A stretch of DNA of 39,716 bases from Oscillospiraceae bacterium (lineage in GTDB: Bacteria; Bacillota; Clostridia; Oscillospirales; Ruminococcaceae), in NCBI GenBank assembly GCA_017436575.1, contig JAFSCU010000011.1, positions 1 through 39,716 on the forward strand. Direction: 5' to 3'. The notes below the pieces were generated by a model that saw only the letters and a list, made by a program, of their open reading frames with translations, was not told where the DNA came from and did no database searches. The translations under genes and the position numbers were made by a program. Positions 718 through 17,087 of this stretch are shown here, in pieces. How positions within the stretch are numbered: position 1 is the stretch's first letter; each line of letters opens with the position of its first letter.

Positions 718-987
718 TTATCTCAGGGTTTCCTGGTACTGTTTGCTCAGGTCCATCATTGTACGGAAAAATTCCAGTGCATACTGGCGGAATTCTTCAT
801 CTGTGCCGTCAGCTACTTTCTGCAGTATTGCTTCTTCTCTTTTTCTGTCCAGTGTTGGCAGGCCGTTGGCCTTTTTGTATGCTGCCACCTGGCTGGACAG
901 TTCCATTCTTTTTATAAACAGTGCCAGCATTTCATCATTGATGGCGCTGATTTCTTTTCTTATTTCTTCCAGATTCAGATTATCCAT
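718..987 (-). CDS. aroQ: Chorismate mutase, AroQ type (monofunctional)
   Basis: This is an 89-residue all-helical protein. It matches the AroQ fold: N-terminal Leu-Arg/Lys-x-x-Ile-x-x-Ile-Asn-Asp-Glu helix, a basic residue in Ile-Lys-Arg-Met, the Val-Ala-x-Tyr-Lys segment with a conserved Lys near residue 38, and a second catalytic Arg/Glu set around Asp-Arg-Lys-Arg-Glu. The family converts chorismate to prephenate at the branch to phenylalanine and tyrosine. The stand-alone form without a prephenate dehydratase or DAHP synthase partner is common in Clostridia. The start codon lies inside the end of the upstream carboxypeptidase gene (8-base overlap), with a GGGAGGAAG ribosome site, which suggests translational coupling. 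No other aromatic-pathway gene is nearby. Confidence 0.85.
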   Translation of the reverse strand: MDNLNLEEIRKEISAINDEMLALFIKRMELSSQVAAYKKANGLPTLDRKREEAILQKVADGTDEEFRQYALEFFRTMMDLSKQYQETLR

Positions 988-1789
988 TTTGTTTTACTTC
1001 CTCCCAATATTCTTCCAGTGTCAGGTCGTTGTCCATTATGTAATGTGCTACTTCCCGGCCTACATATCTGTAGTGCCATGGTTCGTAAACAATGCCTGTC
1101 ACGCTTTCCTTTGTTTTAGGGTAACGCAGTATAAAGCCGTAATCTGCACAGTTTTCCACCAGCCAGTCAAACAATGGCTGCTCTTCAAAATACTGTTCCA
1201 GTTCTCCGGTGTAACCCTGGTTTACTATATCCACCACTATACCCAGATTATGTTCACTGGTGCCAGGCACAGCCACCCATTTGGCTGCCTCTGTCTGGGC
1301 GGCCTGCTGGCTGTAACCTGCATTCAGATAGGCCTGCACTTTGTTGTTGTACAGCATTTTCTGATAATTGATTGTGCGGTGTGCACTTCTTATCAGCACA
1401 GGGTGGCCTGCATCGGCGGCATCTTTCAGCATAGCTTCCAGATGTTCCACTGCACGCACATCAAATTTGAAATCGGTGGTTACACCGTTGTTTACAATGT
1501 TTCTGGTTTCCACCTGATAGTCATCGCTCAGCGGGTTTTCCCGGTTTACCAGCAGTGTAAAATCATTTGGCTGTGGTATGGGGTTGGGTGTTGGTGTTGG
1601 CAGTGGTGTTTCCTGCGGCTGGCTTCCCACAATCTGTGAATTGCCTTCTGTTTTTACTCCTCTGCCTGTAATCAGCCCCATCAGTCCGTTTACTGCGAAA
1701 ACTGTCAGTGCTGTAAACAGCAGTGTAAAAATAATCCTGTTTCTTTTCTGCTGTCTGCGTTTTCTGCTTCTTGTCTGTCTGTTTGCCAT
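980..1789 (-). CDS. VanY/DacB-type D-Ala-D-Ala carboxypeptidase (peptidase M15B)
   Basis: The 269-residue protein has a very basic N-terminus (residues 1-18), one membrane segment (about 19-40), a Thr/Pro-rich linker (about 55-75) and a C-terminal M15B domain. Zinc-site motifs are visible: Ser-Ala-His-Arg-Thr, then Gly-Thr-Ser-Glu-His-Asn-Leu-Gly-x-x-x-Asp-Ile (H and D ligands), and the late Glu-Pro-Trp-His-Tyr-Arg-Tyr signature with the catalytic Glu and third ligand. The family trims the terminal D-Ala from peptidoglycan stems outside the membrane. It starts 8 bases after rsmE and overlaps aroQ. No van regulatory genes are present, so a housekeeping cell-wall role is more likely than glycopeptide resistance. 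Confidence 0.88.
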   Translation of the reverse strand: MANRQTRSRKRRQQKRNRIIFTLLFTALTVFAVNGLMGLITGRGVKTEGNSQIVGSQPQETPLPTPTPNPIPQPNDFTLLVNRENPLSDDYQVETRNIVNNGVTTDFKFDVRAVEHLEAMLKDAADAGHPVLIRSAHRTINYQKMLYNNKVQAYLNAGYSQQAAQTEAAKWVAVPGTSEHNLGIVVDIVNQGYTGELEQYFEEQPLFDWLVENCADYGFILRYPKTKESVTGIVYEPWHYRYVGREVAHYIMDNDLTLEEYWEEVKQNG

Positions 1790-2578: not shown

Positions 2579-3490
2579 TCAGTGAGTTGCTTCAATACAT
2601 ACCCAGCCGTTCTTTTCGTGGATTTTCAGAATTTCAAAACCCAGATTTTCCAGGCAGGCCACTACTTCGTCTTTTCTTGTGTCGATAATACCGCTGGTGA
2701 TGTACAGGCCGCCTTTTTTCAGGAACTGTGGCACCACGCCGGACAGCATCATTACAGCATTTGCCACAATGTTTGCCACAACAATATCGTATGTGCCGCT
2801 GGCCTGGTCTGCCAGGTCGCCAACCTTGATTTCAAATTTGTCTTCCACGCCGTTCAGCTGTGCGTTTTCTATGGCCACTTTTACAGCAGTAGGGTCAATA
2901 TCCACACCTTCCACATCAGCAGCACCCAGCAGAATAGCGCCTATACCCAGAATACCGCTGCCGGTGCCAACATCCAGAACTCTTTCGCCGCCTTTGATTT
3001 CTCTGTCCAGCACTTCCAGACACAGGTATGTGGTTTCGTGTGTGCCTGTGCCGAATGCCATACCAGGGTCCAGTTTCAGCACTTTACGGTCTGTTTCATA
3101 ATTTTCCCAGCTTGGACATACAGCCAGATTGTTGCCGATATCCATTGGGTGATAATATTTTTTCCAGCCTGTTTCCCAGTCTTCCTGGTTGATGAATACC
3201 ACTTCACATCTGTATTCTACCCCCAGGGCGTCCAGTCTGCTTTCCAGTGTCAGGCGGGCATTCTGTGCATCCAGTTCAGGTGAAATATAGTGATGAACGA
3301 TAATTTCGTTTCTGTCTTTTTCCAGCAAATCCTGCTCAATCAGGTCTACATGGGCGATTTCCTCCACCTGCTGTTCCAGGTCGGAATAGTCTTCTATCTG
3401 CACACCCATCGGGCAGACTTCTGCTGAAACAAAATCAAAAATATCTTCAAACTTTTTGTCAGTAATAATTTTAATATCAGTCCACTGCAT
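2579..3490 (-). CDS. prmA: Ribosomal protein L11 methyltransferase
   Basis: The 303-residue protein has an N-terminal substrate-recognition domain (about 1-110) and a Rossmann methyltransferase domain with Val-Leu-Asp-Val-Gly-Thr-Gly-Ser-Gly-Ile-Leu-Gly at about residues 170-181. A downstream Val-Ala-Asn-Ile motif takes the place of the N/D-P-P-Y motif, as is usual for PrmA. It trimethylates ribosomal protein L11 using S-adenosylmethionine. First gene of the minus-strand operon; an AAGGAG ribosome site precedes the ATG, and a TATAAT-rich stretch about 30-45 bases upstream is the likely promoter region, although no good -35 hexamer is visible. Confidence 0.95.
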   Translation of the reverse strand: MQWTDIKIITDKKFEDIFDFVSAEVCPMGVQIEDYSDLEQQVEEIAHVDLIEQDLLEKDRNEIIVHHYISPELDAQNARLTLESRLDALGVEYRCEVVFINQEDWETGWKKYYHPMDIGNNLAVCPSWENYETDRKVLKLDPGMAFGTGTHETTYLCLEVLDREIKGGERVLDVGTGSGILGIGAILLGAADVEGVDIDPTAVKVAIENAQLNGVEDKFEIKVGDLADQASGTYDIVVANIVANAVMMLSGVVPQFLKKGGLYITSGIIDTRKDEVVACLENLGFEILKIHEKNGWVCIEATH

Positions 3491-3550
3491 AGTTAAATCT
3501 CCTTATTAACATTAAATTATATTATATCATAAATAAATGGGTTTTCATAG

Positions 3551-12933: not shown

Positions 12934-12962
12934 AATCAAGCATTAGGAAATGCACCATATGT

Positions 12963-13038
12963 GGCGGTATAGCTCAGTGGCTAGAGCAACCGGTTCATAC
13001 CCGGTAGGTCGTAAGTTCAAATCTCACTGCCGCTACCA
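12963..13038 (+). tRNA. tRNA-Met (anticodon CAT, elongator)
   Basis: The acceptor GGCGGTA pairs with TGCCGCT (two G-U pairs), with discriminator A and encoded CCA. The anticodon stem ACCGG/CCGGT holds the loop TTCATAC. The stem lacks the three G-C pairs of initiator tRNA and the sequence resembles elongator tRNA-Met of Bacillus. A CAT anticodon could also mean tRNA-Ile2, which is less likely from the acceptor stem. Confidence 0.9.
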
Positions 13039-13043
13039 TATAT

Positions 13044-13118
13044 GGCCCGTTGGTCAAGCGGTTAAGACACCGCCCTTTCACGGCGGTATCACGAGTTCGA
13101 TTCTCGTACGGGTCACCA
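13044..13118 (+). tRNA. tRNA-Glu (anticodon TTC)
   Basis: The acceptor GGCCCGT pairs with ACGGGTC, and the anticodon stem CCGCC/GGCGG holds the loop CTTTCAC. CCA is encoded. It is nearly identical to Bacillus tRNA-Glu. It lies 5 bases after tRNA-Met and shares its promoter. Confidence 0.96.
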
Positions 13119-13155
13119 AAAGCAGTAAGTCGGATGACTTGCTGCTTTTTCTTTT
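13118..13155 (+). terminator. Terminator of the tRNA-Met/Glu unit
   Basis: A 14-bp stem (13118-13131 with 13136-13149, one G-U pair) is followed by a T-rich run. It overlaps the CCA end. Confidence 0.88.
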
Positions 13156-13159
13156 TGTA

Positions 13160-13480
13160 CAAACCGGTACGATGTGGGCATCGTACCCTACAAAGATTGT
13201 GGTATACATCACTGCGTAGGGGCTGATGCCTACATCAGCCCGTATTTATATTAAATCGCAGGTACGAATTGTGTTCACCTGTTAGTCAGGAAGAGGCAGA
13301 ATGCATTCACTGCTGTGTCATTACTATAGTACGTAGGGGGAGGGGTTCCGCCTCCTGCTTTTTCTGGATGGTATGGGAGTTTGGCTTTACAGGTGTATTG
13401 ACAAATTGTGCGTAGGGGATGGCCTCCCGGACATCCCGCTTTGGTACGGATATAGGCATCCGCCCCTACTGTTTTTAAAC
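13160..13480. repeat. Intergenic cluster of GTAGGGG-type repeat units
   Basis: This gene-free stretch holds several short palindromic units: GGTACGATG/CATCGTACC (13167-13187), GCTGATG/CATCAGC (13222-13239), and at least three CGTAGGGG starts (near 13215, 13331 and 13402) with facing CCCTAC ends (near 13186 and 13464). Two of the units recur at 33233-33302. This pattern resembles small non-coding palindromic repeats dispersed in Clostridia. No protein-coding signal is seen. The remaining bases up to 13560 hold nothing I recognise. Confidence 0.6.
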
Positions 13481-15037: not shown

Positions 15038-15082
15038 TTAATCTGCTCTTTAAAACAACTACAAGAGAATTATTCACCATAT

Positions 15083-15104
15083 GGTTGTACTTAACTATAC
15101 AACC
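15083..15104. promoter_or_regulatory. Operator-like palindrome upstream of the HTH-PyrE gene
   Basis: GGTTGTA (15083-15089) and TACAACC (15098-15104) form a perfect 7-bp inverted repeat with an 8-base spacer. It ends 6 bases before the -35 hexamer. It is a candidate binding site for the HTH protein itself. Confidence 0.5.
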
Positions 15105-15110
15105 ACTACA

Positions 15111-15140
15111 TTGAAAATACTTATCATAGGGGTTTATAAT
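15111..15140 (+). promoter_or_regulatory. Sigma-A promoter of the HTH-pyrE/pyrF operon
   Basis: TTGAAA (15111-15116), an 18-base spacer and TATAAT (15135-15140). Confidence 0.72.
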
Positions 15141-15172
15141 TATAGTGCACAATGGAAAAAGGAGATAAATCT

Positions 15173-16000
15173 ATGTTAATTGGTGATAAGATACGAGTGT
15201 TACGCAAAAATAAAAATATAACACAAACTCAACTTGCAGAAGCTTTGTCTGTTTCCTCTCAATCAGTGAGTAAATGGGAAAATCATTTATCTTCTCCTGA
15301 CATTAGTGTTTTACCTGTTATTGCACGTTACTTCGGTATAACGATGGATGAGTTGTTTGGTTATCGTCTTGATGCACTCAACTATAAGGAGCGTTTTATT
15401 CGCTTTATGGTAAATAATGGAATGTTGCGTTTTGGAGAATTCACGCTGAAAAGCGGTCGCCTTTCCCCGTACCTTATACATAGTGGTTATAATCTTACTG
15501 GAAGTCAAATATCTAAACTCGGTGAGTTTTACGCTGAGTGTATCAGAGAGCATAGCATTGAGGCGAACTGTCTTATAGGGATAAACAACAGGGAAATTCC
15601 ACTTGTAATAGCAACAAGCATGACACTATTTAATAAATATGGCATAGATTCATCGCATTGTGTTGATTATGACATTGAAAATAATGCTTTGATGTCTCAT
15701 GAAATAACATTGATTACCGATACTTTTACATCGGGTGCCTCTCTTTGCTCTGCGTTAGAGCAAATCAAAATGAAAATGAACAAATATCCGTCAGATGTCG
15801 TAGTTTGTGTCGATAGAATGGAAAGCTCTGACCATTCTTCTCTGTCAGCTAAACACGAGATAGAAAAACGATATGGAGTAAAAATATATCCTATCGTAAA
15901 TGCAGACGATATAATCAAGGCTATTGAAAGTGGTGTAATTACAGCAGGCGAATATTTTGAAGAGCTAAAAGATTACATAAAGCAATATAAAGGAGAATAA
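15173..16000 (+). CDS. XRE-type HTH fused to a degenerate orotate phosphoribosyltransferase domain
   Basis: The start at 15173 has AAAGGAG 8 bases upstream; an earlier ATG at 15152 has none. The protein has 275 residues. Residues 4-60 are an XRE helix-turn-helix (Thr-Gln-Leu-Ala-Glu-Ala-Leu, Ser-Gln-Ser-Val-Ser-Lys-Trp-Glu). Residues 71-270 align with PyrE throughout: Leu-Arg-Phe-Gly-Glu-Phe-Thr-Leu-Lys-Ser-Gly-Arg-Leu-Ser-Pro-Tyr at 85-100 keeps the equivalent of E. coli Lys26. The Ala-Tyr-Lys-Gly-Ile-Pro block is Asn-Asn-Arg-Glu-Ile-Pro (138-143), the catalytic loop with its Lys/His residues is missing (about 164-177), and the PRPP loop is Ile-Thr-Asp-Thr-Phe-Thr-Ser-Gly (181-188) with one Asp lost. 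It is probably a ligand-sensing regulator rather than an enzyme. Codon use is AT-rich, unlike its neighbours. pyrF follows 2 bases later. Confidence 0.88.
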   Translation: MLIGDKIRVLRKNKNITQTQLAEALSVSSQSVSKWENHLSSPDISVLPVIARYFGITMDELFGYRLDALNYKERFIRFMVNNGMLRFGEFTLKSGRLSPYLIHSGYNLTGSQISKLGEFYAECIREHSIEANCLIGINNREIPLVIATSMTLFNKYGIDSSHCVDYDIENNALMSHEITLITDTFTSGASLCSALEQIKMKMNKYPSDVVVCVDRMESSDHSSLSAKHEIEKRYGVKIYPIVNADDIIKAIESGVITAGEYFEELKDYIKQYKGE

Positions 16001-16002
16001 CC

Positions 16003-16959
16003 ATGAATGTTGTTGACAGACTAATTGAAAATACGATAAAAACCAAAAACCCGTCTATTATAGGGCTTGACCCAGACATTAGGAAAATTCCTGCATGTTA
16101 TAAAGTTAATGTAAAAGGAAATAATCCATTTGAAGCAGTAGCGAATGTAATATATGAATTTAATCGCGATGTGATTAATACTGTTGCCGACATAGTACCT
16201 GCAATTAAACCACAAATGGCATTTTACGAAAAATACGGTTCTTATGGTGTTGCAGCTTTTGAAAAAACAGTAGCATATGCAAAATCAAAAGGGCTGGTTG
16301 TTGTAGAGGATGCAAAGCGAAATGACATTGGCAATACAGCACAAGCTTATGCAGATGGACATCTTGGATGTGTAGAGTTGCTTGATGGTTCTCAAAATCC
16401 ATCTATTGATTCTGATTTCTTAACTGTTACGCCTTTTTTGGGAAGTGAAAGTCTGAATCCTTTTATTGATGTGTGTAAAAAGAATGACAAAGGCATCTTT
16501 GTATTGGTAAAAACTTCAAATATAAGTTCTGGTGAAATTCAGGATGTCGTTACCTTGAACGGAATGACAATCAGCCAAAGTATTGCACAATACGTGTTCG
16601 AGCAAGCTGAAACGTTTAGGGGTAAACACGGATATTCCTCTATCGGTGCTGTAGTTGGAGCAACTTATCCAGAGGAAGCGGTTTTACTTCGAAAGATAAT
16701 GCCGAAGAGTTATTTCCTTGTTCCAGGTTATGGAGCACAAGGTGGTAATGCAGAAGACATTTTACCTTGTTTCAACCAAGATGGTCTTGGTGCTATTGTC
16801 AATTCATCAAGAGGAATCTTGTATATGCATATGAGCGACGAAGAAAGAGCACAGTGTTCTCGTCAAGAATATTTGTCAAATGTAAGAATGGCTACTTTAC
16901 AGATGCAAAATGATATTTATTCGGTCTTAAAAAAAGAATATCTACAGATGGTATATTGA
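16003..16959 (+). CDS. pyrF: Orotidine 5'-phosphate decarboxylase, type 2
   Basis: The 318-residue protein has the length of type-2 PyrF. The active-site block is Glu-Asp-Ala-Lys-Arg-Asn-Asp-Ile-Gly-Asn-Thr-Ala with the catalytic Lys and Asp residues. Other blocks are Ile-Gly-Leu-Asp-Pro-Asp near the N-terminus, Thr-Val-Thr-Pro-Phe-Leu-Gly, Gly-Ala-Val-Val-Gly-Ala-Thr, Val-Pro-Gly-Tyr-Gly-Ala-Gln-Gly and Asn-Ser-Ser-Arg-Gly-Ile for the phosphate site. It turns OMP into UMP, the last step of de novo pyrimidine synthesis. Its ribosome site GGAG lies in the last codons of the HTH-PyrE gene, so the two are coupled. It is AT-rich like its partner. Unlike the partner, all catalytic residues are intact. 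Confidence 0.95.
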   Translation: MNVVDRLIENTIKTKNPSIIGLDPDIRKIPACYKVNVKGNNPFEAVANVIYEFNRDVINTVADIVPAIKPQMAFYEKYGSYGVAAFEKTVAYAKSKGLVVVEDAKRNDIGNTAQAYADGHLGCVELLDGSQNPSIDSDFLTVTPFLGSESLNPFIDVCKKNDKGIFVLVKTSNISSGEIQDVVTLNGMTISQSIAQYVFEQAETFRGKHGYSSIGAVVGATYPEEAVLLRKIMPKSYFLVPGYGAQGGNAEDILPCFNQDGLGAIVNSSRGILYMHMSDEERAQCSRQEYLSNVRMATLQMQNDIYSVLKKEYLQMVY

Positions 16960-17050
16960 TTATTTACACAGTGAATATAAAATATATCTGTTCGATAAAT
17001 TTCAATTTATCAAACAGTTATAAAAAAGCCGTTCTGAAACCGAGATACCG

Positions 17051-17087
17051 CAAAAATCCTCCCTATGAGAAGTCTCATAGGGAGGAT
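17051..17087 (-). terminator. Terminator of the minus-strand membrane protein gene
   Basis: A perfect 14-bp stem (17056-17069 with 17074-17087) with a 4-base loop is followed on the minus strand by TTTTT. It may also stop transcription from pyrF on the plus strand, although the tract there is poorer. A weaker inverted repeat is visible at about 16990-17018. Confidence 0.75.

Follow-up and report, generated by a model that had tools for sequence, protein, structure and literature searches.

A putative autoregulator built from a PyrE-like domain and an XRE helix-turn-helix accompanies a second OMP decarboxylase gene in gut Clostridia

A contig from an Oscillospiraceae bacterium encodes an XRE helix-turn-helix (HTH) fused to a PyrE-like domain directly upstream of pyrF, which raises the question of what such a protein senses and which genes it controls. 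The initial annotation of the window (the whole 39,716-nucleotide stretch of DNA that we analyzed) had read the protein as a catalytically degenerate PyrE acting as a pyrimidine-sensing repressor. The coding features concerned are as follows:

15173..16000, plus strand: HTH-PyrE fusion, a putative autoregulator (275 aa)
15191..15355, plus strand: XRE/HTH_3 domain of the fusion (residues 7-61; Pfam)
15380..15988, plus strand: PyrE-like domain of the fusion, without the catalytic loop (residues 70-272)
16003..16959, plus strand: pyrF, a long-type OMP decarboxylase gene, the second copy in the genome (318 aa)

The fusion begins with an ATG at 15173 that is preceded by AGGAG at 15160-15164; an alternative in-frame ATG lies at 15152, about 12 nt past the -10 hexamer. 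For the DNA-binding head, the top Pfam match was HTH_3, which passed its cutoff on residues 7-61 (50.6 bits versus 23). TIGR00336 (pyrE) matched residues 78-247 at 78.9 bits, under its cutoff of 106.8, and a PDB sequence search returned the OPRT of Vibrio, Francisella, Salmonella, and E. coli (E value 6.7e-27 to 9.4e-25), with matches inside residues 70-272. We then built an AlphaFold2 model from a 35-sequence alignment (mean pLDDT 86.9). Foldseek ranked 1oro_B first for this model (TM 0.87 by target length), with the OPRT of E. coli and Francisella as the top matches in the structure search, and the protein is thus predicted to have the OPRT fold.

To follow the domain order across genomes, as had been proposed, we scanned genome contigs and kept the best 80 of 115 relatives. 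This yielded 34 complete fusions of identical layout (the window and the 33 loci L009-L041), and the proposed architecture of an XRE HTH ahead of a complete PyrE-like domain is therefore borne out. Three loci do not appear in the protein tables: L042, whose frame is broken, L043, which is cut off within the gene by the end of its contig, and L044, which lacks its 5′ part. In L042, found in a MAG contig, the fusion frame at 2726-3531 contains 15 stops in a naive reading and the remaining module is recognizable. A quick tree built from 67 PyrE-type sequences grouped all 34 fusions in a single clade (SH-aLRT 98), whose placement among the other PyrE groups this tree did not resolve. At a threshold of 1e-40, the full-length fusion was found in 5 of 295 genomes of the order, a patchy distribution, and four of these appear to be the genomes of L014, L017, L019, and L024. 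Among the 36 records L009-L044, 21 mention a ruminant in their titles (roe deer, goat, sheep, water buffalo, water deer, or reindeer). Values of dN/dS were low in the HTH (0.02-0.13; 8 pairs, three including the window), in the PyrE domain (0.04-0.17; 7 pairs, the eighth having saturated synonymous sites), and in pyrF (0.10 and 0.11; two pairs), which indicates that both fusion domains are under purifying selection and that this is not a decaying enzyme.

We next compared the catalytic residues by aligning the fusions to E. coli PyrE, the numbering of which is used for K26, Y72, R156, and the other pocket positions. The window fusion has K93 at K26, N139-R140 at Y72-K73, T182 at D124, D183 at D125, and R215 at R156, and lacks K103, H105, and E107. 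These last three positions are alignment gaps in all 34 fusions, and the span between E. coli residues 94 and 122 is 20 aa in 30 fusions and 16-17 aa in four, as against 30-32 aa in 30 of 30 ordinary PyrE. The catalytic loop is therefore missing throughout the clade (34/34), and no homolog that keeps it, the observation named initially as evidence against degeneration, was found there; two proteins of a second HTH-PyrE type, described below, keep a different partial loop. The Y72-K73 pair is missing in 33 of 34 fusions, since only L040 retains Y72, and with it the whole pair; K73 is R in 22 fusions and is retained in five. By comparison, 22 separate PyrE from the carrier genomes have R99, H105, and D125 without exception and K103 in 21 cases. 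Catalytic degeneration thus holds for the family as well as for the window protein, and two finer points of the initial annotation fare less evenly. The Lys equal to K26 is present in the window protein, and as a family trait it fails, being retained in just 17 of 34 fusions. The change of one Asp of the PRPP pair to Thr is likewise present at position 124, where the fusions have T (21), K (9), E (3), or N (1), non-acidic in 31 of 34 and Asp in none; the reference residue needs correction, however, as ordinary PyrE of the carrier genomes have Glu rather than Asp there (22/22). D125 is retained in 32 of 34 fusions, and S31, P32, G130, D155, and R156 are invariant.

To determine which side of the pocket is conserved, we picked 13 positions for the orotate/OMP/5′-phosphate side and six for the pyrophosphate side. 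We assigned R156 as what we take to be the orotate contact of E. coli PyrE, and Y72, K73, D124, and D125 by their presumed contact roles in the OPRT pocket. Across the 34 fusions, mean entropy was 0.74 bits at the 13 positions and 1.29 bits at 174 other positions (P 0.010 for random sets of other positions being as conserved), or 0.79 bits and P 0.016 with D124 added. The six pyrophosphate-side positions averaged 2.35 bits and were among the most variable parts of the domain (P 0.0014 for random sets being as variable). Ordinary PyrE (26 rows, with the four divergent sequences L102, L107, L109, and L110 left out) had entropies of 0.47 on the OMP side and 0.00 on the pyrophosphate side; with those four included, the values were 0.80 (D124 in the set) and 0.38. 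We read the fusion PyrE domain as having lost its PRPP/pyrophosphate side and kept its nucleotide-product side, a pattern that would favor OMP over PRPP as the ligand. Of the candidates first put forward (orotate, OMP, and PRPP), PRPP would be the least likely because the pyrophosphate side is relaxed. The accessible part of PMC10087573 treats the roles of K26 (an OMP/orotate contact), K103, and the loop, and gives K103 as essential in E. coli OPRT.

The features that suggest regulation lie immediately upstream of the fusion:

15073..15104, no strand assigned: putative operator, box ACCATATGGTTG (15076-15087) followed by AACTATACAACC
15111..15140, plus strand: promoter TTGAAA-18-TATAAT (11 of 12 consensus matches)

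The pattern 5′ of the fusion reads TTCACC-n-AATGGTTGTA-n-AAAACT-n-TCCAA, then the -35 region and TATAAT, and the ACCATATGGTTG box is often CAACC-N3-GGTTG in relatives. We assessed 36 loci (the window plus L009-L044, minus L043), of which 30 align gap-free over the putative operator; L016, L019, L024, L035, L038, and L040, with a weak or absent site, were left out of this alignment, although L035 has CAACC-AAC-GGTTG. As the sequences are related, flanking DNA of the same loci served as the control. Conservation over 30 nt of the putative operator was 0.90 bits per position versus 0.12 in the DNA upstream (30 loci). The distance from GGTTG to the -10 hexamer is 52 in the window and 49-52 in 30 of 30 loci, taking the best TATAAT-like hexamer 40-61 nt past GGTTG and resolving ties toward 51; such a hexamer matched at least 5 of 6 positions in 28 of 30 loci versus 8 of 30 control stretches. 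A conserved dyad at a fixed distance from the -10 hexamer is suggestive, and only that, of an XRE operator. The inverted repeat first noted at 15083-15104 lies inside this element; its right arm, TACAACC, is not family-wide, the shared parts being only the left box and AAAACTnTCC.

To search for further targets, we built a 46-bp, sequence-only model (R1) from the module promoters and scored 150 candidates per genome. In each of the 21 genomes, the module promoter was the top hit (E 1.8e-9 to 0.0052), as expected because these promoters built the model, and no second strong match appeared among the 150 candidates in any of the 21 genomes (all others E 0.0099 or worse). At the best remaining place (L168, E 0.0099), no pyr gene was recognized. 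One strong operator per genome suggests that the module most likely targets nothing but itself and that its product is a local autoregulator. The pyrimidine repressor of the initial annotation would accordingly stand as a PyrE-derived putative regulator and not as a regulator of the pathway at large. A search of 12 genomes with the short palindrome and two mismatches was too unspecific for regulon finding; matches clearly exceeded the reversed control only in G001, G004, G005, and G006 and were fewer in G003, G008, and G011. In L173, from a carrier genome (R1 E 0.15), a perfect CAACCATTGGTTG palindrome lies upstream of a 166-aa XRE gene (921-1421, minus strand), whose recognition helix (VSAQAVSKWE) resembles that of the fusions, a hint that this type of helix may read GGTTG. 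No such palindrome was found upstream of four XRE genes of the window's own genome (L003, L004, L005, and L007).

Other control elements were considered and set aside. For PyrR-type RNA control, Rfam gave only tRNAs above threshold in the window, and in L119 (pyr cluster, part of pyrC) and L001 it gave three sub-threshold matches, none pyrimidine-related. We claim no terminator, since the hairpin at 16988-17017 is called on the minus strand only (A rather than T follows on the plus strand) and the plus-strand call at 17056-17087 falls outside the shared cassette. Elsewhere in the window, an 89-aa ORF at 12950-13219 (plus strand) runs across the genes for tRNA-Met and tRNA-Glu (12963-13118) and is probably not a gene.

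The gene that shares this putative operon, pyrF, encodes an enzyme whose substrate is OMP and whose product is UMP. It passed TIGR02127 (264 bits versus 110.6) and has an intact DxKxxD motif (DAKRNDI). A long-type pyrF follows the fusion in 30 of the 36 loci, of which 29 have the motif D[AS]KRNDI and one, L042, has DCKRNDI; it is missing beside the fusion in L020, L025, L026, L027, L040, and L041. The suggestion of an intact downstream pyrF in a self-contained module is supported by sequence, and we add that this pyrF is a second OMP decarboxylase gene. In the window's own genome (98.87% complete), a pyrC-carB-pyrK-pyrD-pyrF-pyrE cluster lies on contig C54, away from the cassette, with its pyrF at G000:C54:27735-28397 (pyrF and pyrE identified by profile model, the cluster names otherwise from translations). 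Of the 23 carrier genomes tested, 20 have pyrF next to the fusion; all of these but G020 encode a further OMP decarboxylase (19 of 20), which is short-type in 15 and a second long one in 4. A PyrE above cutoff and separate from the fusion was found in 22 of the 23, the exception being G022, where PyrE pieces sit at the ends of contigs. The fusion of G006 also exceeds the TIGR00336 cutoff (107.7 bits). Of the module PyrF, 27 were of sufficient length for a tree and grouped together in a single clade, separate from those of two plain pyrE-pyrF pairs and from five ordinary long PyrF, and fusion and PyrF distances were correlated (r 0.90, 26 loci, Mantel P 0.0005). In L045 and L048, a plain pyrE is directly followed by a long-type pyrF; such a pair is a possible model for the ancestral gene pair of the module, on which the trees give no resolution. 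A HAD-family hydrolase gene that overlaps the fusion at its 3′ end stands in place of pyrF in L027 (3510-4331, plus strand) and L041 (8806-9471, plus strand), and HAD genes follow pyrF in L010, L012, and L016 (Pfam was run on L010, L012, L027, and L041). These neighbors would fit clearance of a phosphorylated metabolite and prove nothing.

We next determined the limits of the unit with a blastn comparison of the complete window (39.7 kb) and 40 loci (L009-L044 plus L122-L125, the latter repeating four). The downstream limit is the following:

16960..17002, no strand assigned: point where the match to L009, the nearest relative, ends downstream, taken as the cassette edge (blastn stops at 17002)

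Matches were confined to 15071-17002 and reached both cassette ends for L009, L010, L011, L013, and L022. The G+C content is 0.357 in the fusion and 0.365 in pyrF, versus 0.44 on both flanks. The PyrE domain of the fusion is 90-92% identical to those of L009 and L010, while the ordinary PyrE of those genomes are 20-41% identical to that of the window's genome; six genomes with ordinary PyrE 65-84% identical carry fusions at 47-55%. Because similarity stops at its edges, the cassette (15073 to about 17002) is a self-contained unit that moves horizontally, with different neighbors across species. No mobile element was identified as its carrier: there was no plasmid protein match at 1e-25, and none of four candidate stretches in viral contigs proved a relative. 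In a phage collection, 13 records matched the fusion, all from residue 44 or later. What this analysis brings to light in gut Clostridia is a second, still unexplained OMP decarboxylase that has spread horizontally.

Taken together, our preferred reading is an OMP-sensing, self-regulated cassette for a spare OMP decarboxylase, for which we judge the chances to be about even. That the fusion is a putative regulator with a putative operator is well supported by sequence; its ligand, DNA binding, and regulatory sign we infer. The fusion would bind the putative operator as a dimer and control its own operon only. Its PyrE domain would no longer bind PRPP or pyrophosphate and would still bind the product-side nucleotide OMP, which could build up when orotate arrives from outside or when the ordinary PyrF is blocked or too slow. 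The OMP-bound regulator would then permit transcription of the operon, and the extra PyrF would turn OMP into UMP. We lean slightly toward OMP lifting repression rather than switching on an activator because the promoter is near consensus. Against OMP stand the pocket changes (K26 kept in half of the fusions, D124 in none, F34 and F35 replaced in most) and the retained Y72-K73 of L040; against the cassette as a whole stand the 6 of 36 loci without pyrF and the 6 of 36 without a clear operator or left out as weak. If the reading is true, it shows how an enzyme may become a sensor of its own product by loop deletion, retention of the product site, and addition of a DNA-binding head, and, with the consumer of that product encoded by the neighboring gene, both ligand and target are open to prediction and testing at once.

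A bolder version, which we consider possible though rather unlikely, is a mobile bypass: the loop-deleted PyrE would detect OMP that accumulates because an inhibitor blocks OMP decarboxylase or orotate in the animal gut overwhelms it, and would induce the spare enzyme. Such a unit would serve as a metabolic back-up or a means of resistance under the control of a dead form of the pathway's preceding enzyme and would represent, to our knowledge, the first OMP-responsive transcription factor. Less probable is a UMP feedback regulator or an orotate sensor. The adjacent PyrF makes UMP, and both UMP and orotate would fit parts of the same pocket; a pure UMP site, however, has no need of R156, present in 34 of 34 fusions, and a pure orotate site has no need of the retained 5′-phosphate loop. 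Slightly more doubtful again is an autoregulator that binds no small molecule, its PyrE fold merely pairing two HTH domains. Loss of the catalytic loop and the pyrophosphate side, together with the variable K26, would agree with this, but conservation on the nucleotide side exceeds that of the remaining domain, and R156 and G130 are invariant.

The remaining explanations have little chance of being right. A PurR-like protein that senses PRPP or orotate and governs the pyrimidine pathway as a whole would have the precedent of PurR for purines and is improbable given the lack of a strong second operator in 21 genomes, the loss of the pyrophosphate side, and the contrast between a patchy fusion and pyr genes that are general. 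About as improbable is a defense or toxin-antitoxin-like module with PyrF as the effector. It would account for a unit that is patchily distributed, moves horizontally, and carries its own operator, and PADLOC matches exist, yet these concern only the HTH part, PyrF itself looks like an ordinary OMP decarboxylase and has no PADLOC match at 0.01, and the plasmid, viral, and phage searches described above speak against it. An OPRT that has gained an HTH and remains active or bifunctional, for which the fold and the part of the pocket that is kept could be cited, is hardly credible beside the loss in every fusion of K103, H105, and E107 and the separate PyrE of nearly all carrier genomes.

Finally, we compared the fusion with known proteins. 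Ordinary PyrE (1oro, 1sto, 1opr) shares its whole-domain fold, 5′-phosphate loop, and R156, and differs in having the catalytic loop, the Y72-K73 pair, and an acidic residue 124, and in lacking an HTH. PyrR is a PRTase-fold regulator of pyrimidine genes that acts on RNA, whereas neither the window nor the fetched part of the pyr cluster from the same genome yielded a PyrR-binding RNA. Bacillus PurR, which has a PRTase fold, a winged-helix DNA-binding head, PRPP as effector, and a purine regulon, resembles the fusion as a PRTase-fold regulator with a DNA-binding head; the window protein has an XRE head and no winged helix, with one strong operator per genome, and has lost Y72, K73, R99, K100, K103, and H105 of a PurR-type PRPP site (positions taken from OPRT, not from the PurR sequence).

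A second, rare HTH-PyrE type (L120, 5955-6752, minus strand; L121, 5012-5800, plus strand) likewise combines HTH_3 and a PyrE-like domain in one protein. Unlike the window clade, it keeps both Asp of the PRPP pair, AYHG instead of AYKG, and the partial loop mentioned above. With a second-type query, 10 of 398 genomes of the phylum matched at 1e-30, and only the window protein spanned the HTH. No pyrF was noticed among the translated neighbors of L120 and L121; the L121 fusion adjoins glycosidase-like and other carbohydrate-like genes, a setting reminiscent of GfcR.

GfcR itself consists of an N-terminal HTH and a PRTase domain, and we equate it with NCBIfam NF002620/PRK02277, a model that the window fusion fails (19.9 bits versus a cutoff of 115, residues 110-219 only). 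As far as the accessible parts of the sources go, GfcR of Haloferax volcanii and Haloarcula hispanica is a transcription regulator encoded by pyrE1 and an archaeal activator of sugar degradation genes (PMC11519228), built on the PRTase fold (PMC11519228, PMC12607858). The window protein is similar in deriving from a pyrE-like gene and differs from this archaeal sugar-gene activator in failing the GfcR-type model. The proposed PyrE-based analogue of PurR thus keeps its place as a putative PRTase-fold regulator, and a PyrE-like regulator is already known in Archaea (PMC11519228, accessible part). The titles and abstracts that we searched contain no description of an XRE-PyrE fusion, which is weak evidence of absence. 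Regulators built on PRTases are known from PurR and GfcR; the XRE-PyrE fusion with its pyrF cassette would add a bacterial PyrE-based case beside them.
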